Assembly (NCBI GenBank): GCA_027600665.1
Contig: JADGJL010000239.1
Location: 1-29,664, forward strand
Length of the DNA stretch: 29,664 nucleotides
Direction: 5' to 3'
Origin: Irineochytrium annulatum
Lineage: Eukaryota > Chytridiomycota > Chytridiomycetes > Chytridiales > Chytridiaceae
Positions within the stretch are counted from its first letter, which is position 1, and the number at the start of each line of letters is the position of its first letter. Positions 1-25,806 of this stretch are shown in pieces. Position numbers and translations under genes: made by a program. Below the pieces are notes generated by a model, which was not told the origin of the DNA, made no database searches, and saw only the letters and a list, made by a program, of their open reading frames with translations.

Positions 1-3000
1 GGTCGGGGATTACGGTGCAGCGGGTGGAAAAAAGGGACGTGGGGAAGTTGGTGGCGATTTTGAACATTAACGGGAGTTGGAGCAAGCTGACGCTAAAGCG
101 TGAGTTATTGAACACCAATTTATTGCTCATTTCTGACGTTCGAGGGGGCGTTTTTTTGTAGGCCAACACGAGAACAGCTTGGCGCAGATTATTAAGTGCG
201 TCTCGATGCAGAGCAAGATCACGACGCTTATTTTCGACTTCCCGGAGTATGCGAAGGACGACTTCACGTGTATGGTCCCCTGTAATTACCTTACCGACTT
301 CGTTGTCTTCGGCGCGACGCGTGAGCTGACCGCCGATGTCGCCGAGGCCGTGATGGACTTCGTCGACGGCTGTGAACAGCTCGAGGTTCTTGACCTGGGC
401 GGCAGCCTTCTATCATCAGGCTTCCTGACCGCCCTCTTCCCGCGCGTCGCGAACGCACAGTTAAAGCGACTTCATATGGACGAGTGCGGATTCGACAACC
501 CCGAGGCCGTCGAAGCATTGGCCTCAGCTATCGAAACCACGCGGTTCGAGGGCGTTGAGATCATGAGCTTCGTGGCGAACGAGATCCGGGACGAGGGCAT
601 GATCAGACTTGCAGGGCCGCTGGCGGCCATGAAGAAGTTGACGCTGCTGTCGCTGGAGTCCACGAGCCTCTCGCTGGCTGGAGTTGGGATCGTGTGCGAG
701 GCGCTGACGTCGAGTACGATCGAGAGCTTGAGTTTTGGAGGTGAGTTGCTTCTTCGTTTCCTTTTCGTTTTAACCGCATGCGCTTAGGTGTCACTGAGGA
801 TGTGGAGGAAGATGCCGCGATAGAAGCGATGATAAAAGTTGCCAACTTTTTCGCCGCGACCACGACGCTGAAGAGCTTTGAACTTAGCGATTCGAATCTG
901 TTCGATCGCCACGTTGCGGTTATCAGCGAGGGTCTTCGGTGTAATAAGAGTCTCGCCGAGCTTGATCTGTCTGGGAACACTATTGGGAATCGAGGCTTTG
1001 CTGCTCTGGCCGACGCCTTGGCGGAGAACACGACACTTGAGGAGATTGCGTTCGCCGGCTGTCGGAGTGACGATGATAGCGAGGATGGCAATGGCGAGGG
1101 CTTGTATAGCGGTAGGGGTTTGGAGGACCTGATAGGAAAAATGCGCGGCCTTAAATCCCTGGATATCAGTGAAACGCTCTTGTTACCGGAGGCCGCCCCG
1201 AGGATCTTCCGCGCCGTCGGCTTAAGCACGACCCTGGAGAGTCTTCTCATGGATCATATTCACATCAATAGGCTTAACGACGAAACTTTGCTCTTATTCA
1301 ACGACTGCGTCCGCAACTCGACTTCGCTGAAGACTATCAGTCTCGTGGGAAGTTCGATCCCGATGAACGAGCGTACTATCGACGCCTTCAATAGCAATGC
1401 GAACGTGAACATCTTCTTCGAGCCCGAGGACGCTTACCCCTCTGATGACGACGGCGACGACGGATATATCAAAAACGAAAACGGTTTCTTCAACATGAAC
1501 ACGCTTGATAGGAAGGAGACAGTGCGAGCCCGACTGAAGTCCCTAACACTCCGGCGTCTGATCACGGGCGAGGAAGGCGGAGGGGAGACGTCCCCCGGCG
1601 GAAGTGATAAGTTGAGGCAGGACTCGACGTCGGGAGACTCGAAAACGTTTATTGTCTTTAACGAGGCCGACGTTGACGGTGTGAAGGCTGGTGGGGAGGC
1701 CGAACGGCGGGCCAAAGTGCAGCCTGAGGACGGCTCTACTGTGCTTGCGGCATTGAAGCTCTCGATTCTTCGAACTGCGTCGGCTCTAGCGGATAGCAGC
1801 TCGCAACATTCGAGGCTGAAGGAGGTCCTGGAAGCCATTAAAGTGGTCGGGGACATGCCTCCTGCGACTGACGTACCAGTGAAGCCGTCTCAAAAAATTC
1901 TGAATTGGGGCTTGGATGCTGACGAAGACGTGTTTTTACTCGCGATACCAACGGAATCCGCGTCTATTCCGCCGGCGGAGCGCCAGATCATCCGCGAGCT
2001 TAAGCTCCGCTTGCTATCAAAAAATTACCCTTCCGCGGAGGTTGCCGAGCAGAAGATTGGGGGCTGGGATGAGCTGGAATCGCCAAGTGATAGTTTACAA
2101 CAGTCGCCGAAAGGAGCCCCTATGCCACTAGGGGCGACGGCCGGCTTCCTGCAGGGCGGAATGGGTGCCAGTAACGAAGCCGGCGGCGACGGAGAGAGTA
2201 GGAGGGTGACAGCTGTTATCTTGCCGCAGTATCCAAGGGTGGCGGCAAAAAAGGTAATTTAAACCTGGTTAGCATCGGGTGTACTAACAGGTTGCATTAG
2301 AGGGGCGAGAGTAAAGCGTTGGGTTTAAAGGACAAGATTAAGGACAGAAAAGCGAATCTCTACGTCGTCTTTCTCTCACATGCGATCGTCACGGCCATGA
2401 CTGCATCTTATGACGTCTTGAAGAACGCGATTGATACTTGGAACCATATTTTGAGCCAGGTGGAAAAGGGTCATGGTTCATTGCTTCCAGGTGAGCTTCG
2501 AGCTATAAATGCTGTAACGTTAACGTCATTTTCAGTTTTCCTTTGCACGGACGGTGACACAGGATCGGTCATATGGAAGATACAGTCGCGTTTGAATTAC
2601 GCCTTGTACTTGCTGCATGCTCAAATCGGACCATTAAAGCCGGGAGAGGGCAGCGTTAAGAAGGCGGTTTCCACTATCCGTCGGCTTTTTCTGTTTCAGG
2701 GCATCGTTGTGAACGATATCCGGCAGTGTAGCATCGTATGCGAAAAGATGATGAACGTACTGACTGAGTTTACGAATCACTACGCCGTCTTTCATGACGA
2801 ACTGGAAAAAATCAAGAAGAAGTTGCGCGCACAGCTTGAGGCTATCGGCGGCCTCAATGGCGACGCGTGTCATTGGCCGGACCCGATTCGGGACGACGAG
2901 GTCGCGGCCCAGGTCGGGACACTCATAGCAACGAACTCTACCTGGAAGAGCTTTTCGGCGCGATTCGAGGACCAGGCCGACCTCCTAGCGCTTGTCGATG

Positions 3001-5370
3001 TCCGGAACAGACAGGGCGCTAAGACAGTGATCGAGAGCTTGCATTTGAACCCGACCATCGACGTCGTCCGGCTGGCTGTTGACGCGTCATATAATTTACC
3101 TGGTAGGACAGGCGGCCTTATGCTTGTCGACCTTCTGGCATCGGGCCTTCAACGTGCGAAGTGGGATGAGCTATCCGTGACGTTGCCGCTGAAACGTAGA
3201 GCTATTTATGGCCTGGTTCAGGTCATGCGGGATAGCAAGTCACTAAAGACTTTAGAGCTTATCAACGGCATGATCGTCCGTGACCCAGATAGATGTGTTG
3301 ACATAGATCAAGCTGCGGAGGGCATTGGGTCGTCGGGGGCGAGATTGATCGCAGATGCGGTGAAAGTGAACACGACGCTTACGAGGCTCAATTTGTCGAA
3401 AAATCGCTTCGACGGGAAGGGTTTTAAGGCGCTTGCTGAGATGCTGTCGGCGAATAAGACACTACAGGCGCTTGTGTTGCAGAGTAGGTCCATTGTTTAT
3501 TAACTGTTCTTGGCCAGTCGTTTGTAACACTTGAAATCAGAGACGGCGTTCGATGACGGGGCCATTGCCATTTTTCAAAGCGTTTTGAAGAAAAGCACCA
3601 CGCTTGTCGAGTTCGACATCTCGGACAATATCGTGACGGACGAGGGATTGAAGGCTCTATCGTCCGCGGTAAAGGCTTCAAAGGCGATGGCGAGACTCGC
3701 CTTATCCAAAAATCGGTTCACGGGCCCAGGCGTGGACGCTTTTGGCGGAGCCCTTACCTTGAATAAGAGCCTTGTCCGAGTATACATTGGAGGTAAGGTG
3801 GCTTCCCGTACGTATGGTTGCTTACTTGAGTATTAGCTCGACCAACAAAGAAACGGACGATACAGGAGAAGTCCTTGACAACGTTTTTGGGCAATATAAA
3901 GCTTTCTAGCGTCTCCGAACTCGGTTTGGACCGTAAGTGTTGACTACCCGCGACGTTGACTACCCGCGACGTTGACTACCCGCGACGTTTAACCCTTACC
4001 TGAAAAATAGATCAACCCTTCAAACCGTCGAGTGTTTTCGCATTAAGTTCTTTACTTGAGGAGAAACCGATTACGAAGCTGATCTTGCAAGGTGAGACGA
4101 GAGTTGATGAGTGCAAGGTGATGACACTTGTTGAATTGCCTTATAGACTGTTCTCTCTCTGCAAACGATATGGTCGCCATCATCGGTGCATGCCAAAGGC
4201 ATTTCGCCTTGAGCTATCTGGATGTCTCGTGGAATTGGATCGAGGACGACGGGTGTCTCCCGATCGCATCATTTATCGAAAAGAGCGAAAAGTTGGACTT
4301 TCTCGAGCTCTCAAATACCGGTATCACCGTGAAGTCCTTTACGGCGATCGCAAAGGCGTTGGAAGTTAACCGGTCACTCAAGACGTTGATACGTGAGGGC
4401 CATGACACCGTGGACGTTATAAGGCGCTTGGAAACGGAAATTGACGAGTCGCTGTACCGAAACCGCGTTCTCGCAGAGCTCTCTCACTCGATTAGGAGTT
4501 GGAAGTGGGCTATCGAGAACACGTCCGCCGAAGTCATCGACTACCTTCTTCAGCTCAAGGGCCACGAGGACTTTATGACGGAGAATAGGCTGGCCGTCAT
4601 TTCTCTAGCTTGTAAGTACGGCTCGATCGAGACTGTCCGCGGGTTGCTCAAGGATCTGCCGGAGGGCTTCGACTGGTCTGAGAGCCACGGGAACGACTTC
4701 ACACCTCTCGGGTTTGCGATCAACAGCAGCAACGTTAAGCTCGTCGAACTCCTGGCCAACCTTGACAACATGAGCTGGATCGTGTACACGCCGGACTCGA
4801 CTAGCGCCGTCTATCTCGCCGTCGCCGTGAACGGAAATACCGAGATCGGGGACGTCCTTATAAAGCATGGTGCGAGTGTTGAGGACGGCCTGGATTCGGA
4901 AGCGAAAGAGCCCGAAAAGCCTGGTTTCACGCCACTCCACTACGCGAGCCTTTACGGGAACCTCGCAATCGTGCAGTACCTTCTCCGCAAGTGTAACGCG
5001 AACGCCATGATCGATGACACGGGCGCCACCGCCCTCCATGCCGCCGCGAGGGGCATTATACCAGTCGAGACTGATGACAGCTACGCAGAGGCAGAAGAGG
5101 CGAAGGGTATTCACGTCAACCGTCGGGCAAATCACGCCGCAGTTATTAAGGCTTTGGTTAAAGCCGGCGTGAACGTCAATTCTTTAGATTCTCAGGTACT
5201 TTGAAAATCATGCTTTCCAATTTAACTCCCGATTTTTCTAGCGAAAAACGCCACTCGATTACGCGACGACCTCCAAGCAGGTTGAGCTCGCGAAGGTGTT
5301 GAAGAGGTTGGGCGGCAAGCCAGGACCGCCAGACGAGATTAGGAGGACAAGTAGAAACACAAGCATGTGA
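1..5370 (+). CDS. LRR-ankyrin protein, paralogue A of a TIR-LRR-ankyrin gene (5' end outside window)
   Basis: Partial large gene entering from the left edge; 1628 residues are visible. Exons: <1-99, 162-740, 788-2253, 2301-2490, 2536-3483, 3541-3792, 3837-3932, 4011-4091, 4147-5195, 5242-5370 (TGA). The protein aligns with copy B at 5585-12511 from about 30 residues before the end of B's second exon. Visible order: ribonuclease-inhibitor-like LRRs (LxxLxLxxNxIxxxG pattern), an acidic linker, a helical segment beginning YVVFLSHAIVTAM, a second LRR block, then ankyrin repeats in the last 230 residues or so. The intron before 2301 has a perfect TACTAAC branch point. Splice phases match B throughout; exons of 190, 252 and 81 nt have identical lengths in both. 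The C-terminus is basic (ends RNTSM), unlike the acidic end of B. Whether a TIR domain precedes it cannot be seen. An intracellular receptor or scaffold role is inferred from domain type only. Confidence 0.85.
3939..3986. repeat. Three tandem copies of a 16-bp unit inside an intron
   Basis: The unit gttgactacccgcgac occurs three times head to tail without mismatch, directly after the 5' splice site of the intron 3933-4010 of paralogue A. The equivalent intron of copy B (11120-11164, 45 bp) lacks it, and the extra length here (78 bp) is mostly the repeat. It is a local microduplication with no coding role. Confidence 0.95.
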
Positions 5371-5584: not shown

Positions 5585-8500
5585 ATGGACTTCCTTAAAG
5601 CCTTCGGGCGCCGACAACCTTCCCAGCCGCCCCAAGCTCCTTCGCCGCCGAATGATCAGGCTAACATGCGACAGGCCGCAGTGCAGGCTACCTTTGCTGC
5701 CCAGACCCCCCCGACCGCCGCCGGTACCGGTTCCTTTGTGCCAATGACTCGTTCGGTCGTGGGCAACGCGCAGACTGCCCAAGCCGACCCGCTGCCTACG
5801 AGCTCAACTAGCCCGCTCGCTCCGCCGCCTCGGTCAAGCTCGAAGGTACCTCTTGAGCCTTTAGTGAGCCCGGCGATCGTGCCAGCCCCCGTGAACTCGC
5901 TGCCGATGCGTAATCCCCACGACGAGCGGCCGCTCGTCCCGGTGGTAGCGATGCACACCGCTTCTGTCGCGGCGCGAACGCCGCCGGCCACGCCGCCTGG
6001 AGCCGCATCGCGGGCGGCGCCCGTGCCGCCGCCGCATGACAGCAGCAGGGGCGCTATAGCCTCCGAGGTTTCTACGTACGAGGCTATTGAGATCGGGCTG
6101 GGCGACGACAAGGCTTTTGATTACGAGCTCCACACTCTCAGACACCTGATCTCGGTGCATCACGGGAGGCACGATGACGAGATTACGGATGATATTCTTG
6201 ACGCCCTCGTGGCTATTGATGAGCGCGTCCGGAAGGAGCTTGCGGCGAAGAATAAGGAGATCGATGACACGAGGGCGAAGATTGCCGAGTGGGAGAGGAA
6301 ATGGCAGGATCTTGCGACTACTAGGGAGGATAACGAGAGTGAGCGACGCTAATTTTCTGTAGGATGTTTCTAATTATAATACGCCCCAGCCGAATTGAAG
6401 GAAGTCGCCTATGAAGGATGGCCGGCGGATCCTAGTAACTACGACGCCATCACATCCCCTTTCGGCTACAAATACGACTTCTTCATTTCTTACCGGGTTG
6501 CGGCCGACTCCTACCTCGCACGCGAGCTCCGACTCCATCTTCAGCTTGCTGGCGCCAGGGTGTTCCTCGACCAGGAGGAGCTGAGGGATGGCGAAGACTG
6601 GCGGATGGGCTTCGTGAGGGGTCTCAAAAACTCGAAGGTTGTCCTGTTCCTAGTCTCTCCTGGCTGTCTCGCTCGCATGCACAGCTCGGATCGGTCCACG
6701 GATAACGTTCTGCTTGAGTGGGAGACCGCCATGGCCGCAGAGGAGCTGGGCTTCACAAAAGTTCAGCCCATCTACATTGGCGAGGGACAAGTAGACATAA
6801 CCGAATTTCCGGACGAGCGGCCGTTGTTCAAGAAAGCAACCGAGACGGACATTTTCTGCCGACAAAGCGCCCGAAAGACGCTGGAGAAGCTCGCCAACCT
6901 GTCTACGGATCCGCTTTACATCGAAAATCCGGCAAAGCGCTTAAAAAGGGACCTTATCTCGGCGCTCATGGATTGTAAAGACGGTTTCGAGGACATGAGG
7001 GACTCGAAAGCGGTTGACCGTGTGGAGTACCTCTTCGAAGAAATGAAGATTTACTTTTCTGGCGTGGGAGACGATGTGACGGAGGATGACCTTGCAGCGC
7101 TTTGGAGGGCTGACGAAGTCGAGATTTCGAGGGTCGAGGATAAGGACTTGCAGAAGGTAGTGGCGATTTTAAGTGTCAATATGTACTGGAGCAGCGTCCA
7201 CCTTAAGCGTATGTAACGTCACTGTGATAAGGGCATAACTGTCTCACCCATGTACCGCGTTCTACAGGTCAGCGCGAGAAGATCCTGCCCCTTCTCGTGA
7301 AGTGCATCGCGGAACAAGACATCATCACGTCCCTGACGTTTGACTTCCCGTCCTATGGGAAAGACGACTTCACGGAGTTGGTGCCATGCAACTACCTGAC
7401 AGATTTGATCCTCTCCGGCGGTACCCAACCGTTGACGGGCGAAGTAGCTAATGCCCTTATGGACTTTGTCGACTCATGCGATCGTCTCCGTCTCTTGGAC
7501 TTCGAAGGAAGTCACCCGCTCACCTCAGCCTTCTTGTGCACGCTCTTCCCGCGCGTCGGAGGCCTCACACACCTCTCTTTAGCGGGGTGTGGGTTCGACT
7601 CGGTCGAGGCCGTTGAGACGCTGGCGGCCGCAATCGAAAACACAGGCTTCGAAGGGGTCGAAAATATAAACCTTGCCAACAACTCGATCTGGGACGAGGG
7701 ATTCGAGAGACTTGCTGGCCCGTTGGCAGCAATGAAGAAGCTGAAGCGCTTATCGTTGGGCCAAACGTCCCTTTCGCTGATCGGTGTCGGTATCGTCTGC
7801 AAGGCCTTGACGGCAAGCTCAATCAAGTCTTTAGATTTCGAGAGTGAGTTTAGATAGGGTTTTGATAGACCTTTCACTAAATAGCTTACCTTTTGTCGCG
7901 CAGACGCTGCCATGCCTGAGGAAGAGGACGCGGACGAGAAGGTAGCAAAGGCGATGGAGGACGTGGCGACCTTTTTGGCGGCGACGACAACACTTGAGAG
8001 CTTCCAGCTTGAATCCTCGTGCTTGACTGACATCCACGTCGAAATTTTTTGTAAGGGTCTAACGAAGAACAAAAGCCTCTCGGAGCTTAGTCTTGCGGGC
8101 AACCCCTTTGGAAGGCGCGGGTTTGCCGCCCTTGCCAAGGCCTTTGCGGACAACACGACGGTGACGGATATATCGTTTGCTTACTGTCGCAGCGGTTCCG
8201 AGAGCGGGGACGGCAATACGGATGGTTACCTCTCCGGGGAGGGACTGGACGATCTGATCAAGATCGCGAAAGGTCTGCGAAGTCTTAACCTCACCGGAGT
8301 CGATTTCCTTCCCGCCGCCGCTCCCCTGCTCTTCCGCGCCGTCAGCGAGAGCACCTCGCTCGAGAACCTCATCTTGGATCACGTGGAAATTGAGCTTACG
8401 GACGAGGGGGTGAAGCTCTTCAACGACTGCGTCCGTAACTCGACGGCGCTCAAGTCCATTAGCCTCAAGTACAGCACGATGCCTATGGATGAGGATACGA

Positions 8501-11500
8501 TTGAAGCGTTTAGCAAGAACGTGAACATGGGCATCGAGTTTGAGGAGGGTGAAGCTCCCTCTGATACCGACGGCGATGATGGATACATTGTTGATGAGGC
8601 CGCCGGGTTTCAAGGAAGCGAGAGGAAGGACACGGTGCGGTCGAGGTTAAAGACATTGACCATTCGGAGGAACAAGGAGATCAAAGAGGACGATGAGGCC
8701 GATGGCGAGGAGGCTGATACCGGAGAGAGTCCAGGAGAGGAGGCCGAGGATGAGCTCCAGGAGAAGAAGGACAAGGAACCCAAAAAGACTATTCTCGCCT
8801 TCGCCAAGGCGCCAGATGCCGACTCTCAGAATCCCAAGGCTGTCGCGGAATCCGCGAAGGTTCAACCAGAAGACGGTTCAACACGTCTCTCTGCCATGAA
8901 GCTCTCGATATTGAAGTCGGCCGCCGCGCTTGCCGACAGCAGCTCCCAACATTCAAGGCTTAAAGAGGTCCTCGAAGCGATCCACGGTTTTGGCGACGTC
9001 TCCGCAGCGGGCGAGCTCAAGCCGTCCCAGACGCACTTAAGGTGGGAGCTGGATGAAGATGAGGACCGTTCCGAAAAGGATGTTTTCCTACTTTGGAAGC
9101 CTACACAGGATGCTTCCATCCCGTTGGTTGAGGAACGAATCATCCGGGAGCTTCAACTGCGGCTCATGTCGGAAATTTACCCGTCTGAGGATGTCGAGGA
9201 GGAGAGCATCGGCGGCTGGGACGACGCGGAACCCGACACGGAGGACAATGATACGGTTCAGTCCCGTCCACAGGCGTCATTACAAGAGGACGATGCCGGC
9301 GCGAATTTCGTAGACGACGCACAACCAGGAAATGCGGCCGACAATGCCGAGGACGACGACAATAACGATGATAACGGGCGGAACGTGACGGCGGCTATAT
9401 TGCCAGGATATCCGCAGGTTCTATCGAGAAAGGTAAGGAATTGTTTTACACTTGGTCAAAATTGACTCTATCGCTTTATTATATGCAGCGTGGGGAGAAC
9501 CAAGCCTCGGGCCCTGTGGGCAAGCTTAAAGAGATCAAGGCTGGTCTTTACGTAGTTTTCCTGTCGCATGCGATAGTGACGGCGATGAAAAGTTCGTACG
9601 ACGTCTTTTGGAACACCATTGGGACCTGGGAGAACCTTTTAAATCAGGTGGACAAGAATAATGGGTCTTTGCTGCCAGGTCTGTCCGTAATTCGCTGAGC
9701 GCGTTGCAAATATTATTGACAACGTGAATAGTATTTCTTTGCCCGGAGGGGGATTCGAGCACGGTTATTTGGAAGCTGCAGTCAAGGCTGAACTACGCCC
9801 TATACTTGCTATCATCGCAAAAGGGCGGGCTGGAGTCCAAGGACGCCGAGAGCACCGTGAAGAGAGCTATCGACACCATCCGCCGCCTCTTCCTCTTCCA
9901 AGGTATCGTCATCAATGACGTACGGCAGTGCAACATCGTATGCGATAAGATGATGAACGTTCTGGGCGAATTTGCAAAGCGCTACACTGGCGTTCACGAA
10001 GAGCTTGAGAAAATTAAGAAGAACTTCAGGAAGCCGCTGGAAACCGTCGGCGGGCTGGAAAGCGACGCCTGCGAGTGGCCGGAGCCGATCAATGACGACG
10101 AGTATGCTGGTCAGCTCGGCACCCTCCTGGCTACAAACACCACTTGGAAGACCTTTACGGCGAGGTTCGAGGAGAAGGAACCGACGGGCTCCGACGTCCG
10201 CAACCGCCAGGGTGCGAAGGCTCTGATCGAGTTTCTCAATCAAAACTCAAACATCGACGTTGTTCGCCTTGCCATCGATAAGTCTTACAACCTGCACAAC
10301 AAGACGGACGGGCTCTTGCTTATCGACCTTCTCGCTAAAGGCCTCGCGAGGGCCAAATGGGACGAGCTTTCCATCACGTTACCGCTGCATCCGAAAGCCA
10401 TCGGGCCCCTCATCTCAGTTATGAAGGAGGTCGGCTCGCCAATGCGGCTTGAGCTGATAAACGGTATTGTTACCAGCGGTGACTATGAGCCTGAAGATCA
10501 GGCCGGGGAGGGCATTGGTGCACCAGGTGCAAAGCTCATTGCGGACGCATTGAAGACCAACACTACACTCACGAGGCTGAACCTCTCAAAAAACCGGTTC
10601 AATACGGCAGCGTTCACGTCAATCGCCGATATCCTTTCGTTTAACAAGACCCTAAAAGCGTTAATTTTGCAAAGTAAGCTTACTTTCCTTTTTCGGCTTC
10701 AGTCCATTCTAATCGTTTTTAGGGACCTCCTTTAATGACGAGGCCGTTGGTATCATTCTTAACGCCTTGAAGAAAAACTCAACTCTTTCGGAGCTCGATA
10801 TTACTGACAATGAGATGACCGATGAGGGCTTGAAATCGTTATCAACCGCTCTCAAGGCCGGCAAAGCGTTATCCAGGCTCAGCATATCAAAGAACTTGCT
10901 GAAAGGACCGGGTGTTGAAGCTTTGGGCGAGGCACTTAAGTCCAACAAGGGCCTTATCCGAGTTGATGTCGGAGGTACGGGTGGTCTTTGCATCACGGTT
11001 GGCTGTTCTGACGATTTTCCCAAAAGTTTCCGAGAAGGCGCCCTTTGTTGAGGAGAAGTCTCTTACCAGCTTCCTAAGCAGTGTGAAGCAGTCTAACGTT
11101 ACAGAGCTTAGCTTGGACCGTATGTTCTAACTTTGTTGTACACCCGTACTGATCGTTACCGCAGACCAGGCAATCCAGCGATCCAGCCTTTTGATGCTAA
11201 ACACCTTGATAGAAATGAGCCGCATGAAGAAGCTGATTCTTCAAGGTAAACCTTTGCAACTTTTCGTAAGAGGCCTTAATTTTTTTCGTTCATGATTACC
11301 AGACTGCAGTCTTGGTGCCAAGGAAGTTATTGCTGTCATCGAAGCGTGCTCTAAACACTTTACTGTTGCATACTTGGACCTTTCGTGGAACCCGTTCGAA
11401 GATGAGGGATGCCTTCCCATCGCGGCCTTTGTGGAGAAAAGCAAGAACCTAGAGTTCCTCGAAATTTCGCAGACGGGCATTACCGTCAAGTCGTTCACGG

Positions 11501-12511
11501 CGCTGGCGAAGGCTTTAGTGACCAACCGCTCACTTAAAACCTTGGTTCGGGCGGGCCACGACAACGTCGACGAGATCCAGCGCCTCGAGGCCGAGATAGA
11601 TCAGCGTTTAACCCGCAATCGTATCCTCGCCTCGACGACACACTCAATCAAATATTGGAAGTGGGCTCTCGAGAATCAGTCGACGGAGTGTATCAACTAC
11701 CTAAACAAGCTCAAGGGGCATGAGGACTTCTTGGAGGATAACCGACTGACGGTGATCTCCTTCGCCTGCAAATTCGGTTCGCTAGATGCTGTGCGCCTGC
11801 TTTCGAAGGACGTACCGAAGGACTTCGAATGGGGCGTCAGCTACAACTATGGTTTCACACCGCTCGGCTATGCGATCAACAGCGAGAACGCTGAGTTGGT
11901 TGAGTTCCTCATGGGCATTGAAGGCATGAGCTCGATCGCCTACTGGCCAGACTCCTCGAATGCCTTCTACCTTGCTGTCGCGGTTAACGGGGATACCCGA
12001 ATGGGCGACCTTCTGCTCAAGTTCGGCGTGGACCCAATCGACGGTCTTGATGAGGATGCCAGCGAGCCGGAGAAGCCTGGTTTTACGGCGCTCCACTACT
12101 CGAGTCTAGTGGGTAACCTCGCGATTGTAGAGTATATGCTGCAGCACTGCGACGCGACAGCTGTAGTGGACGCGACTGGCGCCACCGCACTTCATGTGGC
12201 TGCGAGGGGTTACATGGGTACACTGGCGGAAAGTCCGGACGAGGACGAGGACGAGGAGACGAAGGCTGCGGACAACAGTTACAAGGTGAACCATGCCGGT
12301 GTTATTGAGGCTCTTCTTCAAGCTGGTCTGGACGTGAACGCTCTTGACGAAGATGTAAGGCACTGTTGCGTTTCAGTCTAGCCTTTTACGGGTGCTAACG
12401 TTCGGCCAACAGCGTAAAACCGCGCTAGACTATGCGACGCGCACGGACCTTGCGGATCTCCTGAAGGCGGCTGGTGGACAGCCGGGACCGGGTGACGAAG
12501 ACGATGAGTAG
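5585..12511 (+). CDS. TIR-LRR-ankyrin multidomain protein (paralogue B, complete)
   Basis: Eleven exons: 5585-6338, 6390-7208, 7268-7843, 7904-9432, 9489-9678, 9732-10673, 10723-10974, 11027-11119, 11165-11245, 11303-12354, 12413-12511 (TAG); 2128 aa. Domains: Pro/Ala/Ser-rich disordered segment (about 1-160); charged coiled coil (about 190-250); TIR domain (about 280-420) with YDFFISYR, the loop LDQEELRDGEDW, SKVVLFLVSPG and LLEWE, whose Glu361 sits where the TIR NADase glutamate is expected; RI-type LRRs from about 525; an acidic linker (about 900-1220); a helical segment; further LRRs (about 1500-1880); ankyrin repeats (about 1890-2120, with GFTALHYSSLVGNLAIVEYM). I found no P-loop or NB-ARC/NACHT motif, so it is not a canonical NLR. 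The start is the first ATG of the open first exon. TIR domains are known to act in immune signalling or NAD+ cleavage; the role here is inferred. No signal peptide or membrane helix is evident, so it is probably cytosolic. Confidence 0.87.
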
Positions 12512-17489: not shown

Positions 17490-18611
17490 ATGGACTACAA
17501 CCTAGCCGACGTGGCGCGGCAGACCGTCGACCTCACTCAGCGCTGGGTGAAGAAGTTAGCCGCGTCGTATGGGGGCTTCCCAAACGGCACGCTCATCCAC
17601 GGCGTAAGTGCTTCCGCGGCCGCTCGGTAGGCGTTGGCGCGGTGCGCTAACACGCCTTTGAGAAGCCTCCCGGAACGGGCAAGACGACCTTCTTCAGCGC
17701 TGTGCGCGAGCTGGGCCTCGACGTGCCTTATATTTGTCTCCGCTCGCTCGACATCATCGAGGACACCACAGCCGCGCTCAACCGCGTCGAGAACGCGATT
17801 GAGCCCACTGTGCTCTTCATCGACGACTTCGACTTCTTCTTCGACGACTCGGGGCAGGGCGGTGGTGGTGTGAAAGGCCGGGAGGCGGCGCAGATGCTCA
17901 TGGAAATGCTGGAGGAGCAGAGGAGCAACGTGCTGCTGTTCGCCATCTCGGACGCGCCATGGAAGATCTCGGCGTTTGGGGCGAAGTTCTTCTCCATGTG
18001 GTAAGGAAACATCATTTTGATACTTCCGCACTTATACTTACCTCTTCGTCGGATAGTATCCTTGTGAATCTGCCGACAAAGGACGACAGGCTTGATATGT
18101 TAAGAAAGGAAATCGAGGGATGGGGAGATGGCATAGAAGTGGACCTGCTCAAGCAGGTTGTCGAGATCACAGACGGGTAAGGCAAACAAATCCCATCGCT
18201 CGCTCCGGCCGTTGCGTGCTTACTTTTCATTCGCAGATTCACCAATGCGGACATCTCGACGGTGGTTAAGTACGCACTCCAGCGCTCCTCCGAACTGATT
18301 CAATGTGCCGACCACTTCAAGAAGGTTGGCATTAAAATCCGACCCTTGAACTCACCGTAAATCACCAGGTTCAAGTCCCCATACCGGACTGTCCCGGTGA
18401 ATTTGAGACAAAGCTCACGCCCTGCTCCGCGACGGCGGACGGCGCGATGCCCATGACGTGGTCCGATATGGATCCGGAGGATATGAAGGAGCCCGAGCTC
18501 ACTTATGACGTCCTCATGCGAGCCGCGATGGAACAGCGGAAGGCCGTCGAGAAGGCGGATACGGCGCTGGCGCGCTACGTCGTATGGGAGGGCAAGTTTC
18601 TGACAAAATAA
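17490..18611 (+). CDS. Small AAA-family ATPase-like protein with altered catalytic motifs
   Basis: Exons: 17490-17603, 17663-18000, 18057-18176, 18237-18324, 18369-18611 (TAA); 300 aa, essentially one AAA domain plus a short tail. Visible motifs: Walker A HGKPPGTGKTT (residues 37-47, split by intron 1), Walker B VLFIDD (about 88-93), a PW-containing sensor region FAISDAPWKISAF, ILVNLPTKDDR, and the alpha-helical lid GFTNADISTVVKYAL, which resembles the GFSGADL of Vps4/katanin/p97-type AAA proteins. The catalytic Walker B glutamate is Asp93, the usual sensor-1 Asn is Asp, and the arginine-finger RRF is GAKFF, so hydrolysis may be weak or absent. The last intron (18325-18368, 44 bp, GTTGGC donor) has a weak donor but restores the frame. 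There is no MIT domain or membrane helix; an upstream exon is possible. The substrate is unknown. Confidence 0.72.
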
Positions 18612-18683
18612 GAAAACTAAGCTCACCGCACAATCGGTCATTATTTGGCGCTTTTCAATAAGAGGATCTGTTCGATTCCTTTC

Positions 18684-18701
18684 AAAAAAAAATTTTTTTT
18701 T
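18684..18701. repeat. A9T9 homopolymer palindrome
   Basis: Nine A followed by nine T in the 245-bp spacer between the AAA gene and the P450 gene. Such tracts are intrinsically bent and tend to exclude nucleosomes, so it may be part of the P450 promoter; that role is inference. Confidence 0.6.
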
Positions 18702-18856
18702 GTTTTCGGGGGGATGTCCGCGTTAGTGATGTATGTTGGTGAAGCGTGCAAGCCGTACTTTGTGAAACCCGCTATTTCCGGCCGAACGCGTTGGTCTGAA
18801 CATTTATTCCGAGGGAAGGCCCCTGCCCACGTTGACCTCATCCGGCCCCCTCCGCC

Positions 18857-20699
18857 ATGTCCGCAAAGCTGATCGCCGCCGTTGTCGGCGCTTTGATCAC
18901 GGCCAGCGCGACCTGGTGGTTCCTGTCCCCCGACACGCCAGAGAAGCGGAAGAGCCGGTATGGCAACACTTTTCCAGCACTCCCCGGAGGCCGGCCTGTC
19001 CTCGGTCACCTCCACCTTGTCGTAACGAGCGACTATTCGTTGCTTCGGGAGGCTGAGAAGCAGGTAAGTTGCGTCGCCCCGCATTCACCCGTGTTAACTG
19101 GTATTTGCAAAGGTGGGCAAGATCTTCAACGTCTCTATCTTCGGCTTGAAGGTGCTGTACTTTAGTGCGGTTGAACACCGCAAGCAGCTGCTTGGGAAGC
19201 TGGACGGCAAGAGCATCGGCGCCGGATGGCCCCCCAGGTGGCAGGCGCTCTTGGGCGCCGGATCAGTCTCGGTAGCTCCCAACGACCAGCACTCTCGTCT
19301 CCGACGGCTCGTCGCCAAGGGCGTCAATAAGGCGTAAGATAGTTGCCTTGTGGCGTCCACTAAACGACCCCAAAACCATTACCACAGAGCCATATCGTTC
19401 TACTACGAGTCCCTTCGCGCCAACGCGCGCAAAATCATTGGGCAGATTGCCGAGGTTACGTCGGGCGGGAAACGGGTCGCGTCGCTTGTGCCGTTTCTCA
19501 AAACATTCACCTACAATGCCATCGCCGGTTTCATCGCCGGCGCTGTGCCCCAGCACGAGGCCGTCCTCCTAGGCCTTAGAAGGGACTTTTTTCTGTGGTC
19601 GGATGGGCTGGGCGACCTCTTTATCCCTGGTAAATAGCGAAGCGGCTCTCGGTGTGACTGTGCTTCTCACCGCCTTTTAATTCAACGAACACAGCGTGGC
19701 TCCCTTTCTCGCCCTTTGCTAAGGCTATGAAGGCCCGCGCTCGCATCGCGAAGGCTGTCGAGGGCGTCATCACCGAGCGGAAGGCGGGTGTCGTCAAGGG
19801 CCTGACCTACAACGACGCGCTCGGCTATCTAGTTGCCGGGAGGGACGAGGACGGATCCGAGCTGACGGTCGAGGAGATCACGGACAACTTTATCTCGCTC
19901 GCCTTCGCCGGCTTCGACACGTGAGTGACCGGAACTGTTCGAGGTGAGCACGCATTTCTAAAATCAAAGGTGCGTATAGGACCGCAGGGACTATCTGCTC
20001 CAGCATCCACTGCCTCTTGCACGAAATTTCGGCCGCAGAGCTGGACCTTCTTCGGAACGAGATCCTCTCCCTCTCCGAGCCCATCCAGGAGTCCACGCTG
20101 ACGTCCCTCCCTGTCCTCGACAGCTTTGTCAAGGAGGTCCTGAGGAAGTACGCCCCTGTCGCGGCCGGTAAGCTAATTTGAGGCTGGTTGCAGTCCGGAA
20201 CTGTGGAAAGGAAATCTAATGGATGATTAGTCTTTAAGGTCGCGACCGAGGACTTTGAGATTGACGGCGTCACTATCAAGAAGGGGACGACGTTGGACGT
20301 GCCCATGTTGGCGTCGCATATGAATCCGGATCATTTCGACGACCCGGAAAGCTTCAGGCTCTCGCGATTCCTTGTAGACGAGGTAGACAAGAAAAGGCCC
20401 TTCGACTTTTTGCCGTTCTCGACGGGCGTTCGCATGTGTCTCGGGATGCAGCTGGCCCGCTTGGAGGTTGGTATATTTGTACTCTCAAATAACATCTCTC
20501 GCCTTAATCGGCCGATATCGCTTCTGCTAAAAACACTCCTTTTGCATTCACGCGCTTGACATTCTTCATTTCTTAGATGAAAATCTTCGTCCTCGAGATG
20601 CTTCGTGGCTTCAACTTTGCGAAGGGCGTTGGAAAGCCGCGGCATCAGCTCTTCCCTGTGAACCTCATGGAGGCGCCGGTTGTTGTGACAAGGCTGTGA
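18857..20699 (+). CDS. Cytochrome P450 monooxygenase, membrane anchored
   Basis: Seven exons: 18857-19063, 19113-19333, 19388-19629, 19695-19920, 19980-20167, 20231-20466, 20577-20699 (TGA); 480 aa, a normal P450 length. It has an N-terminal membrane anchor (about residues 5-23) followed by a Pro-rich hinge (PALPGGRPVLG). The I-helix oxygen-binding motif AGFDTT is at 295-300, the K-helix ExxR is E351-R354 (EVLR), the PERF-like segment is PESFRLSRF, and the heme-thiolate signature FSTGVRMCLG at 424-433 supplies Cys431. All hallmark residues are intact, so it should be catalytic, using NADPH-P450 reductase at the endoplasmic reticulum. The C-terminal half looks nearest to the CYP26/CYP120/CYP90-type clan, which often acts on retinoids or sterols, but the substrate cannot be told. 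It is not recognisable as CYP51 or CYP61. The last intron (20467-20576, 110 bp, GTTGGT donor) is the longest here. Confidence 0.92.
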
Positions 20700-20913
20700 C
20701 CAGCCTGCGTTGGGCATGCGGTTCCCGACCGGATCTCATTTGGTGTTGCCACAAGGTTGTTATTACTCTCCTTCCACATGGTTAAGCTGCTTCTGATCGC
20801 CTTCTCGGAACCTCATTTTTATATTTCTGTGTCCCTCGGGCTGCCTTTTTGAATGTCATGTTCATGTATATATATTGATTAACATTCGAGATGAAATCTG
20901 GGAGAAGAAAATA
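20700..20913. other. Spacer after the P450 gene
   Basis: 214 bp of mostly T-rich sequence ending in a TATATATA-like stretch (about 20868-20876) just before the broken membrane-protein frame. It holds the P450 3' UTR; no consensus AATAAA is seen. Confidence 0.5.
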
Positions 20914-21813
20914 ATGGGACAGCTTCCTGATGTTAATCTTGAAGGCATAGTGTGCCCTTCATCGGGCTCGCAGTGCAGTTTGGAGTTCATCTTGGCCTCA
21001 ATCTTCGCCAACTGCGCCTTCAGTATGCGTCGCTTCGGTTTGCCTCAGCGTAGGATAGCACACGACTCTCCCATCACTGCACTCAGGGCTGACGCGCTAC
21101 GACCTCACGCGCCGCCTCACCAACATCTTCCAGACCTTCTATCCCCCCTGGTTCACGAACGGAACCTCCCTCTTCGTCATCCACATCAGCGTCACCGCGC
21201 TCGCGTCGACTGTGAGCGACCAATACCGTCTTCAGCGCGCCGTCCGATTGCCCAAAGATCAACATGCCGTGGTACCCGACCTTCGAGGCCGTCGTTCGAC
21301 ATACCGCTCGCGTGCCTGTTCGCATACCCCTTATTTAGGACGAGGCTGGTTCTGCGAGTAGCCCCTTAACGTCCTGTTCCTTATCGTGTGTGAAGGCTTC
21401 TTGTTGAATATAGCAAGGTCACCATCCCCGCCGTCGTCGTCGTCGTGGCGTTCTTGACGGCCTTCATATCCGTCTACGACGCCATATGCTGAGCGACGAT
21501 GAGCAACGATTTAGCTGTGACGACCGCCAATTTCGCTTTATTGCTGGACAATTGGTCTTCGCCGACGCTCAGCACGCTGCCCATCGTGCTCACGGGACTG
21601 AGCCAGCGGTTCGCAGTCAGCACGAAGGGGTCGAAGGAGTATTCGTTGTTTGAGAAGGAAGGCGGGTCGACGGGGGGAGGTCACCGTGATAGTGGCTCAA
21701 ATGACGCAGGGTGGGTTGACGGCTATGATTTTGTCGGTCGCCCCGGTCGCGCCAAGCAGGGCCCGTTAATTGCGGTTGGAGTGGAGACGATACAGGGCGA
21801 CACGCGCCAATAG
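20914..21813 (+). pseudogene. Probable decayed gene for a multi-pass membrane protein
   Basis: An ATG at 20914 opens a frame to 21022. A good intron (21023-21086, GTATGC...CTCAG) joins it to an exon reading LTRYDLTRRLTNIFQTFYP and then a hydrophobic stretch up to about 21211. Beyond this, further hydrophobic segments appear in different frames within very short distances: FDIPLACLFAYPLF (about 21296-21337), LNVLFLIVCEGFLLNIA (about 21367-21417) and VTIPAVVVVVAFLTAF (about 21419-21466, followed by a TGA at about 21490). A final frame starts at 21499 and ends at 21813. The frame changes are too closely spaced for introns of normal size, which favours frameshift decay over splicing. I do not recognise the family; four or five membrane segments suggest a receptor or transporter. 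A wrongly modelled real gene remains possible. Confidence 0.4.
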
Positions 21814-22157
21814 GGGTGCAGGAGTCATTTTCCTTGCAAGAAGCTAAAGTTTGGGAACTACGGTTGTTGTTGGTGGGTAGGGTGGGTCATTTTGGCGGTT
21901 ATCATGTTCACATGTTACTGTATTTATGCACGTGTGTTAGTAGTTTCCGCTGGCGGTTTCCTTAATTAACAAGTGCTCTTGGGTTCATATCTCTGCAAAC
22001 GAGTTAAATTATGTCAGTGAGCAATAGCAGCCTGACTATGCTAATGTTTCGCCTCAAGTATAAGTCAGACGATTGTTTGTTCCCTTAGATTTTTACTTAA
22101 TGCGAATACTACTCCCCATCATCCTCACAGAAGCCCTACACACTACACTACGCAACG
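21814..22157. other. Convergent spacer, no gene seen
   Basis: 344 bp between the decayed membrane-protein frame (+) and the stop codon of the adenosyltransferase gene (-). It is AT-rich, with short frames only and no repeat or RNA gene that I can recognise. Confidence 0.6.
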
Positions 22158-23084
22158 TCATGCTGACTTATACTCGTTCCTGTAAATCGCCTCAGTCTTC
22201 CCCTCCTTCATAGCGGCATACCGGGCCGCCGTGAATAGGAAATCGCTCAGCCTATTCAGGTACTTCCCTGTGCTCTCGTCCGCGTCCCCCGAAGCAACGA
22301 TAGGCGTCACCCTGCGCTCGGCTCGGCGGCAGATTGATCGGCACACGTGCAGAGCGGAGGCAGCGCGGCCACCCGACTACGCGCAAGCAACACCGTTAGC
22401 CCCTACCCAGGGAAAGCCAAGTGTATCACTCACCGGGAGAATAAAGTTTCGCAGCGGAGGCAGCTGCGCGTCCAGCTCGTCGATCCACGCCTCCAGCTCA
22501 TCCACCAGCTTCCCTTCGACATCGAAGATGGTCTTGTTCAACCGGGCCTCGGTCGCCTTATTCCGGGGCGTCGCGATGTTCGACCCAATATCCTGCAGGA
22601 GGCATTGGATCTGTTGCCGTACGCCCGCAAAGAACCAGCGATTAGCGAGATCCGGAGGATAGTGAGCCATACACGAACGCGTGCGTCCGTGAAGGGACTA
22701 CGAAAGCATATCAACCTTGTCAATCTTCACCGGCAGCCCGTTCGTCTGCTCCTCACAGAATTCCCTCGCCAGACCCAGGGAACTGCTGAGCTCGTCCGTC
22801 GTTCCCAGGGCCTCAAAGATCTCGTCGTCCTTGCCACGCCGCTCGCCAGTGTAGAGCGAAGACGTGCCTGTCCATATATTGAAGGATGACAAGACGTGAT
22901 CAGATACCACCCCGACAGCTGGCGGAAGTCGACATTGATCTCACCTTTGTCACCAGTCCGAGTGTAAATCTTGATCCGGCGTGGCTCCTTTCTGTCAACG
23001 CGCAACGCGATGGTCAATAAACGGCGTGCGTTTCGCCGACGCTCAAGATACCAGAACGAAGGAGAAGAGGACTCACTCAGCCAT
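22158..23084 (-). CDS. MMAB: Cob(I)alamin (corrinoid) adenosyltransferase, PduO/MMAB type
   Basis: Five exons on the - strand: 23084-23077 (only 8 nt, ATGGCTGA), 22991-22945, 22867-22716, 22610-22434, 22376-22158 (TGA); 200 aa. It transfers the 5'-deoxyadenosyl group of ATP to cob(I)alamin to make adenosylcobalamin, the cofactor of methylmalonyl-CoA mutase. Family signatures are intact: [19 protein letters not shown] near the N-terminus (ATP binding), [35 protein letters not shown] and ICRRAERR followed by FLNRL-like [10 protein letters not shown] and RYAAMKEG near the end, closely matching the human enzyme. The start rests on splicing of the 8-nt first exon across intron 22992-23076, which gives [16 protein letters not shown]; this leaves almost no mitochondrial leader. 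The 22611-22715 intron uses a GTTGAT donor chosen by homology. It lies 168 bp downstream of COG6 on the same strand. Confidence 0.93.
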
Positions 23085-23252
23085 GGTGGAGAATGCAGCG
23101 ATCCGCGATGGGGATGCGAGGAGCGATGATGTATATACTAAACGCTGCCCCAAGAGCTGTCGCAACATTTGCAGGAACTCCGCTACTATGGGGCCAGACG
23201 CCATGCTGAGGCATTATGCTTGAAATGTATCTATTATTACAGTGTGTAATCT
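23085..23252. promoter_or_regulatory. Short spacer between COG6 stop and adenosyltransferase start
   Basis: 168 bp holding both the COG6 3' UTR and the adenosyltransferase promoter, both on the - strand. No clear core promoter element or polyadenylation hexamer was recognised. Confidence 0.5.
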
Positions 23253-25731
23253 TTAATCAGCATTTATATCCAACAGCGTCTCAATCTCCCCGACGCTCCT
23301 CCCCATAATCGTAGCTGGGAACTCGAACTTATTCTTCGGGTCCAGCACCTCCTGGTACAGCCTCTCGTACGCGCCCAGAAATCTCTTGCATGCGCCCTTC
23401 ATGGCCTGCCTCGCAACGCGGGACGATGAGAGCCGCGCAAGCCGGTTGGCCGTATCGAAGGCCACGTTGCAGAGGAATGCGTCGAGCTTCGACATGGCCT
23501 CGCTCAGCTTCTTGGCGTCCATCTCGGGTTCGAGGGAAAGCGGCATCTGGTGGAAAGCACAGCCAGGGTTAGACTCTGCGTGGTTCAAAGATCAATTCAA
23601 AACCTTTCGAGGCTTATCAATCAACGCCACGAAAGGCGCAAGGCCGGACTCGTTGAGGATTCCGCTCGTCAGCTCGCTAATAAGGACGTTTATCTGCTCC
23701 GCCATCTGCGCCTCTATCGACTCCGCTCTGCTCGCCGTGAACGAGTACGGCACCAACGCACTCTTTTACCGAAGCAAGTCAATGACATGTTTAAAGGCTT
23801 GAGCGGGGCATACTTGAACGTAGTAAAGACAGTTGACTCGGTACATGGCGTTCTCGAACTTCGGCAAAGACGCCGCCCCGGTCGCGCACATCTTGAGTAG
23901 CGGCTCGAGGACGGCAGAAAGGATGTCTTGAAACGGCTTCTCGTCGTTTTCTTCGTCGAGGAGGTTTGCCGCGTATGACGCCATGAGCTCTTTCTGTCCA
24001 GTCCGTTAGCATTTACACCAACCAAAAAGGAAAGCGTACAAGTTGCAGAATTGACTCCTTGACCGCCGGTGGCGGGAAAAGGTCTCCTCCCGGCATCTGG
24101 AGGAATGTATTAGTAAGATAAAATGATTCCGGCATTCGTACCTCCACCGACTTCTCTAGCTTCGTCGCTTGCTCCTTCAGCGTGTCGAAAAACACCTTGT
24201 ACGCCAGCTCCGTAACTTCTTCCAATACCAGCGAAAGCTGGCTCTCCTTCCCCATCACCTTATAGATGGTGTGCGCGTAGAATTTAACCATGTTCGCAAT
24301 CCGATACGCCGTTATGGCCCCAGGCTGCGCCATGAGGACTTGCTCCACCCGGACCTAAAAAGGCTTGTCAGCCAGAACTCGCTAGAAGAATGGGCCAACC
24401 TTAAAGGGCCGACATGTCCGCTCCATATTTCTGTCTAGAACCGATAAAACAATTTCACGTTCGCGAGTGGGTTCGATCGGTGCCATGGAATCTCGTTCCG
24501 CCGGCAGCTCGTCAGCATTATCTTGCCGATCTGCACATGGTTGGTAAACATCAACTCCACACCTATATCTACAAACCTTGGGGTAGGTTGAAGAAGCCGT
24601 CTAATAAGTCCTTCTCGCCAATAGCGGCCTGGTGTAGCCACGCCAGCATGTCGCCGATATACCGCAGTGGGTCATGGGCGTGGATCTCAATGGGTCTTGG
24701 CAGGCCACCGCGGCCGCCGATTGTTAAAGCGTCAAGGAACGACCGTGAGACGGCGGTTTGTCGGATGTGGGATATTTCGTCGATACAGGTTCTGTTCAGG
24801 GAGATGTGCTGTTTAGCATCCCGTCAAGCAGAGGTGAAGCATGACGAACTTACTGGAAGAGCACCGGCCGAAGCTTCAACGCCTTCATAGCGTCCCTCAT
24901 CGCCCGCGTCACCTCCGGGATGTCCTTGTTCATCGATCGACATTCGGACTGCGCCCATCGGAACAGCTTGTCGTATGCTGCCTCCTGATAAATCGCCATC
25001 TTCTCCATAATCTCAAGCCTGCCCCAAACGAATCAGCCACTTCCCAAAATCCCAGTCGACAAAAGTAAGCACCCAGCCTGCTGGTTATCGGTGATCAGAA
25101 GCGCCTTGCAGTCCTCGTTGATCTCCTGCAATCGATGCAGGGCCTCAAAAAAGTTGGTATCCAGCGCGGCCTCCGACGACGTGAGCAGAGCGACTTCCTG
25201 CTCGGTCGGCGTGAACCTTGCCAAAAACGCCTCCACGATCTGCTTCCTCGTCTTCGCCCTCTTGCTACATACGGCGTGTCAATCCCGTAACTCCTGAAAA
25301 ATCGTGCTGCAACCCACCTCTTCGTCTTCAAATACTGCGTCTGTTTCATCAGGCTCGCGGTCTGGTTGTGCGCGGCCGCGAGTTTTGTCTCCATCTCGGA
25401 GCAGCAGCCGTTGATGGCGACGATGGTGCCCTCCAGCCTGCTCAGCCTCTCGTCCAGCTGCTCAAACTCGTCCAAGAGCTTCCGGTTAAAGCCGACGGCG
25501 CGCTTCTCCATGTCGCCGCGCAGGTTCCGGCGGGCGGAGAGCGTGTTCGACGTGTAAAAGTCCGAGAGGGAGCGGAGGGCCTCAAGCGTTTGCGGCTCAT
25601 CTATGGACTTGATAATGTATTAGGCGGAATCAAAGTCGGGTTTACAGAATTACCGAGTTGAGTATCTTTGCGAGCTTTGTTGAGAGCGGGTTCGTCCGCG
25701 CGAGCTTGTTCTGGGGCTGGAGGGTCGTCAT
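23253..25731 (-). CDS. COG6: Conserved oligomeric Golgi complex subunit 6
   Basis: Eleven exons on the - strand: 25731-25654, 25607-25318, 25264-25073, 25018-24854, 24791-24577, 24530-24400, 24354-24142, 24096-24040, 23993-23814, 23762-23604, 23546-23253; 657 aa, close to the usual COG6 length. COG6 belongs to lobe B of the COG tethering complex, which captures vesicles for retrograde traffic within the Golgi. The N-terminal third is a coiled coil (about 27-125). Family landmarks: IYQEAAYDKLFRWAQSECR, KLRPVLFQTCIDEISHIR, LPRPIEIHAHDPLRYIGDML followed by AWLHQAA, CRPFKVRVEQVLMAQPGAIT and FYAHTIYKVM. All introns are 45-62 bp and every junction keeps frame. The N-terminal stretch LARTNPLSTKLAKILNS is also typical of COG6. 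Peripheral Golgi membrane localisation follows from the family. The start codon lies 73 bp from the divergent IML1 start. Confidence 0.95.
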
Positions 25732-25804
25732 GATGGATCGTTCACAAGCCTCCAAGGCGTGTGCCTCATTGGATTCGAGCTGTTAAACACAACGAACAGC
25801 TCGA
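25732..25804. promoter_or_regulatory. 73-bp bidirectional promoter between COG6 and IML1
   Basis: Only 73 bp separate the start codons of the divergent COG6 (-) and IML1 (+) genes, so their 5' UTRs and core promoters must overlap each other or the coding regions. A CCAAT box is present as ATTGG at 25768-25772 (CCAAT on the - strand, toward COG6). Most of the IML1-proximal third is an inverted repeat listed separately. Confidence 0.65.
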
Positions 25805-25806
25805 AT
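25773..25806. repeat. Perfect 12-bp inverted repeat overlapping the IML1 start codon
   Basis: Left arm attcgagctgtt (25773-25784), 10-bp spacer, right arm aacagctcgaat (25795-25806). The arms are perfectly complementary. The right arm includes the first two bases of the IML1 ATG (25805-25807). As DNA it could be a dyad binding site; as RNA it could form a 12-bp hairpin that buries the start codon. Confidence 0.9.

Follow-up and report, generated by a model that had tools for sequence, protein, structure and literature searches.

A chytrid gene joining TIR, leucine-rich repeat and ankyrin domains with no recognisable NOD ATPase

The 29,664-nt contig of the chytrid Irineochytrium annulatum analysed here (JADGJL010000239.1 of assembly GCA_027600665.1; the whole stretch is called the window below) carries on its plus strand, at 5585..12511, a gene for a protein that joins a TIR domain to leucine-rich repeats (LRRs) and ankyrin repeats, and that shows no signature of the nucleotide-binding oligomerization domain (NOD) of NOD-like receptors (NLRs). 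The domain order from N- to C-terminus is TIR, LRR block 1, acidic linker, helical segment, LRR block 2 and ankyrins; the TIR has a SARM1-like fold with the catalytic glutamate in place, and the repeats are under constraint. We suggest, with confidence a little short of even, that the protein is a cytosolic sensor working without a NOD ATPase, in which the repeats hold back the SARM1-like TIR until a ligand brings about its clustering.

Pfam profiles run on the spliced protein returned TIR_2 at residues 282–383 (E 1.3e-14), LRR_6 (E 5.3e-17), LRR_1 and Ank_2 (E 5.8e-23). The list to E <= 1 comprises 11 families; in this range the HMMER filters discard most matches above ~0.1. These profiles bear out the TIR-LRR-ankyrin order in one protein that a preliminary description had read from the letters. 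An N-terminal effector-type domain with C-terminal repeats, a trait of NLRs and of signal transduction ATPases with numerous domains (STAND), is present in the form of the TIR, the LRRs and the ankyrins. The layout is not that of a Toll-like receptor, as the TIR lies N-terminal to the LRRs and simple hydropathy gave no clear signal or membrane segment (the top value, 1.62, falls within an LRR). In NCBIfam, a Thoeris protein matched part of the TIR and two further partial matches concerned ankyrins, each far under its cut-off; PADLOC yielded five weak TIR-type matches.

The TIR fold spans residues 279–424 (6470..6907, plus strand) and is recognised by profile as well as by fold. Its nearest solved structure, both by sequence and by predicted fold, is the NAD+ hydrolase SARM1 (the fold search barely covers exon 2 past model residue 176). 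E361, encoded at 6716..6718 (plus strand), aligns with the catalytic glutamate of SARM1, E642 (residue numbers paired by hand), and glutamate occupies this position in 34/34 aligned rows. The SARM1-type pocket tryptophan, present in 28/34 rows, is replaced by N357. According to the relevant part of PMC7075850, that tryptophan and the glutamate form the ligand-binding pair of SARM1, and the glutamate by itself does not predict activity. Both points favour an alternative that we consider unlikely without dismissing it, namely that the TIR is a binding module and not an enzyme, so that the protein would be an adaptor or scaffold recruiting other TIR proteins of the fungus by TIR-TIR contacts; at least 10 other TIR matches in the genome provide possible partners. 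The retention of E361 speaks against this, and so do the solved structures closest in sequence and in fold, which belong to active NAD+ hydrolases. An EDS1-type partner had no match in the genome, but control genomes gave none either, so nothing follows from its absence.

Both LRR blocks are of the ribonuclease inhibitor (RI) type. LRR block 1 (~residues 545–905; 7327..8469, plus strand, including intron 3) and LRR block 2 (~residues 1405–1825; 10076..11541, plus strand, including introns 6–9) show LRR-like starts 28 residues apart, at 747, 775 and 803, from 1569 to 1681, and from 1739 to 1795. Among the best 60 of 289 PDB matches are ribonuclease inhibitor itself (3tsr, E 3.9e-20), LRRC34 and the LRR parts of NLRP chains, and the matches to block 1 are LRR proteins. 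The spacing and these structures uphold the earlier assignment of two RI-type blocks. The ankyrin repeats follow at ~residues 1866–2111 (11662..12457, plus strand, including intron 10), with matches to Ank_2, Ank_4, Ank_5 and Ank.

The Pfam scan of the spliced protein found neither NB-ARC nor NACHT nor any further P-loop family at E <= 1, and the Walker A pattern GxxxxGK[ST] has no occurrence in it; the ATPase by which NLR and STAND proteins are also defined is thus missing at this threshold, residues 906–1400 having no confident model. This confirms the lack of such motifs between the TIR and the LRRs noted previously, and the profile search for a hidden nucleotide-binding domain, which would have overturned that claim, returned none. 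The region between the two LRR blocks consists of an acidic linker recognised by composition and by identity to a paralog described below (~residues 906–1239; 8470..9527, plus strand, including intron 4) and a helical segment without a family assignment (~residues 1240–1400; 9528..10063, plus strand, including intron 5). The model of exon 6 has a mean pLDDT of 44.6 and shows four helices at low confidence. A divergent NOD might escape recognition in the linker or the helical segment, since residues 906–1400 have no assigned fold and the exon 6 model is poor, and the protein would then be an ordinary NLR. We regard this as very improbable in view of the missing P-loop families and Walker A pattern, of NLRP chains aligning to the LRR part of the protein only (best 60 of 289 PDB rows), and of a linker that is acidic and poorly conserved except at 1040–1079. 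Two profile comparisons with the NACHT domains of the same genome were also negative; they are based on a poor three-row NACHT alignment and prove little.

Re-joining the 11 exons (5585–6338, 6390–7208, 7268–7843, 7904–9432, 9489–9678, 9732–10673, 10723–10974, 11027–11119, 11165–11245, 11303–12354 and 12413–12511) reproduced the start, stop, exon limits and length of 2128 residues of the preliminary gene model. The joined frame is stop-free, and each of the ten introns, 45–60 nt in size, has GT-AG ends. Exon 1 (residues 1–251; 5585..6338, plus strand) is proposed from its open frame and composition, no relative having been seen: it is Pro/Ala-rich and then carries a charged helix-like stretch at ~170–255, and its codon usage weakly favours the proposed frame (0.04 vs -0.10 and -0.11 for the others and 0.01 for the reverse complement). 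The open frame is what supports exon 1, and the open frame together with the domain match supports the TIR part of exon 2.

A tandem paralog adjoins the gene upstream (1..5370, plus strand). Its 5' end is cut inside its exon 2 by the contig start, which removes the counterparts of exon 1 and of the TIR part of exon 2. Seven exon pieces are 55–64% identical to the gene. Paralog bases 3–98 match residues 493–524, the end of exon 2 (7112..7207, plus strand; 44% identity over 32 residues), and are followed by an intron at the same place and in the same phase, and then by the LRR exon. This exon end, the intron and the LRR exon thus agree in order and phase between gene and paralog, which makes it unlikely that TIR and LRRs are transcribed separately, an outcome that the preliminary description had named as fatal to its claim: in both copies the TIR exon of the gene, or its counterpart, runs into the LRRs, although the TIR part of the copy itself is unseen. 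In addition, the 59-nt gap between TIR and LRR exons has GT-AG ends and resembles the other nine introns. That two neighbouring genes, one for a TIR and one for an LRR-ankyrin protein, were wrongly joined is therefore scarcely credible, and we set separate genes aside on the strength of the conserved exon end and intron. In the assembly (26.9 Mb, 1082 contigs, the window being contig C258), nothing outside the window matches the TIR exon at more than 37% identity, so the TIR of the paralog either lies in an assembly gap or is absent.

Over 1536 aligned codons (exons 8 and 9 left aside; exon 1 has no counterpart), gene and paralog differ at rates of 0.31, 0.23 and 0.60 at the three codon positions, with a pN/pS of 0.35. 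This pattern and ratio indicate that the shared exons are constrained coding sequence. Identity is highest of five regions in the helical segment (66%), followed by LRR block 2 (62%), LRR block 1 (59%), the ankyrins (58%) and the linker (49% over 925–1225), yet a 40-residue stretch of the linker, 1040–1079, reaches 78%. Either the helical segment or this stretch could be part of a switch. The middle region exists in the assembly as two diverged copies, the gene and its paralog, and not as an expanded family; relatives of the helical-LRR exon were limited to the paralog in the own genome, and none of 40 pattern matches in viral_contigs was confirmed. At window positions ~3868–4000, the exon 8 counterpart of the paralog does not keep its frame open (by eye), and the next intron holds a short tandem repeat; damage to the copy, a difference in splicing or a misassembly may explain this.

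TIR_2 matches occur at 11 places in the assembly, 10 of them over the cut-off, with that of the window included. In one gene on C388 (L018, 1627–6271), a TIR and NPHP3_N/NACHT (E 6.6e-28) share a frame; weak WD40-like matches are also present, as are ankyrins in the following frame. A tree of 26 TIRs places ours with that of C388 (92/88) and next with C184 (91/85), away from five TIR-ankyrin TIRs; these forks fall under the star level of the tool and C388 forms a long branch. The C388 TIR is the nearest by tree path, with 37% identity over residues 25–119 of exon 2 and the motif DNVLLEWE in both; by plain identity the highest is a bacterial TIR (36%). TIR and ankyrin frames lie near each other on C8 and C524, and similarly, by eye, on C295 (two) and C118. 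The TIRs of the five TIR-ankyrin-like genes (L020, L021, L022, L023, L024) group apart from SARM1-like TIRs. A TIR with Sel1 repeats in one frame was observed on C478 (L026, 4942–6219, minus strand), with a P-loop-like motif near its end by eye. NB-ARC was not found in the assembly; NACHT gave 4 matches and NPHP3_N 12, mostly short. The LRR_6 matches on C916, C256 and C424 have no TIR nearby, by eye.

In the sensor that we propose, the large LRR-helical-LRR-ankyrin region would at rest mask the N-terminal TIR or hold it apart. Binding of a ligand or an altered cell protein to the LRR or ankyrin surface would gather several copies, and the clustered TIRs might cleave NAD+, leading to its depletion or to a nucleotide signal, as in SARM1 once its inhibitory domain releases the TIR. 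That the TIR acts as an NADase, that it clusters, that a ligand triggers it and that the protein serves in defence or regulated cell death are all inferences. Weighing against this reading are the replaced pocket tryptophan, the low-confidence model of the middle (pLDDT 44.6), the presence of only two copies in the assembly, and change that is purifying and not visibly diversifying, the last two being atypical of an arms-race receptor family. Two constrained copies of the middle region would also suit a non-immune function, be it housekeeping, metabolic or developmental, for a SARM1-like enzyme or scaffold. The closest LRR chains in the PDB (best 60 of 289) often come from cilia or flagella, e.g. 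LRRC34 and DRC5, and SARM1 responds to metabolic state, as a passage of PMC9806590 describes. We nonetheless think such a role quite unlikely, as a protein built of TIR, LRR and ankyrins is reminiscent of sensor proteins, and the TIR closest to ours by tree path sits in a TIR-NACHT gene. RI-type LRRs by themselves tell little about function.

The genome itself is fungal: it holds six Chitin_synth_1 matches (exon pieces, hence fewer genes), and 14 control prokaryotes hold none, which agrees with the fungal look ascribed to the gene earlier. Other genes of the window are ordinary (17651–28726: AAA ATPase and Vps4_C frames, cytochrome P450, COG6 and IML1). A cobalamin adenosyltransferase exon at 22701–22940 (minus strand) hints at the use of B12, an uncommon trait in fungi.

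Reviews of fungal immunity describe the NLR-like receptors of fungi as lacking LRRs, and the surveys underlying them take the NOD as their starting point. A fungal protein that combines TIR, LRRs and ankyrins but no NOD, standing beside a tandem paralog and in the same genome as a TIR-NACHT gene, suggests that NOD-based surveys miss a class. More tentatively, and with clear doubt, we propose a NOD-free class of TIR-LRR receptors in fungi, in which the conserved helical segment between two RI-type LRR solenoids would replace the ATPase switch and link the binding of a ligand to clustering of the TIRs; intracellular sensing by LRRs would then have arisen, or survived, in fungi unseen by NACHT/NB-ARC surveys. 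The gene offers a concrete test case for the control of a TIR enzyme by LRR repeats in the absence of an ATPase.

Among the titles listed from the open-licence full-text literature, none names a TIR-LRR-ankyrin protein from a fungus or such a join lacking a NOD, and the passages available from PMC4102429, PMC11291939, PMC9153377 and PMC9806590 hold nothing on a fungal TIR-LRR protein. SARM1 and TIR-1 share with our protein the TIR sequence, the predicted fold and the catalytic glutamate. SARM1 has ARM and SAM domains and a C-terminal TIR (PMC7075850, in part), whereas here the TIR is N-terminal, the pocket tryptophan is an asparagine, and neither ARM nor SAM matched among Pfam families at E <= 1; the protein does not qualify as a SARM1 ortholog. 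Plant TIR-NB-LRR proteins are alike in their N-terminal TIR, C-terminal LRRs and lack of a visible membrane segment. Our protein differs from them in having no NB domain, RI-type LRRs and added ankyrins, and its TIR is closer to SARM1 than to the flax L6/L7-type TIR. Animal NLRs such as NOD2 and NLRP proteins share the RI-type LRRs, but carry a CARD or PYD in the place of the TIR, and our protein has no NACHT match. Intracellular TIR-Ank and TIR-Arm proteins of choanoflagellates likewise carry interaction repeats alongside a TIR and have no transmembrane segment (PMC6040629, in part), though no LRR-ankyrin form is named in that part.

Closer to hand, the TIR-NACHT gene of the same genome has the N-terminal TIR, the DNVLLEWE motif and ankyrins in the next frame, but also NPHP3_N/NACHT, weak WD40-like matches and no LRR match; the joining of its two frames is putative. 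The preliminary description had set the gene apart from other fungi on account of both LRRs and TIR. With regard to LRRs the contrast holds: fungal NLR-like proteins are without them in the pertinent sections of surveys and reviews (PMC4986451, PMC12881547, PMC5658179), and a 101-species survey reports LRR receptors absent from fungi (PMC2939053, in part). It is weaker for the TIR, since TIR-bearing NLRs are reported from Chytridiomycota (PMC9815663, in part) and a TIR in a fungus is therefore not new, as the own TIR-NACHT gene also illustrates. Fungal NLR-like proteins share with our protein the kingdom and, in some cases, an N-terminal TIR or ankyrins (PMC9815663); as far as the cited passages extend (PMC9815663, PMC4986451, PMC12881547, PMC5658179), they have a NOD and no LRRs, and our protein is the reverse.
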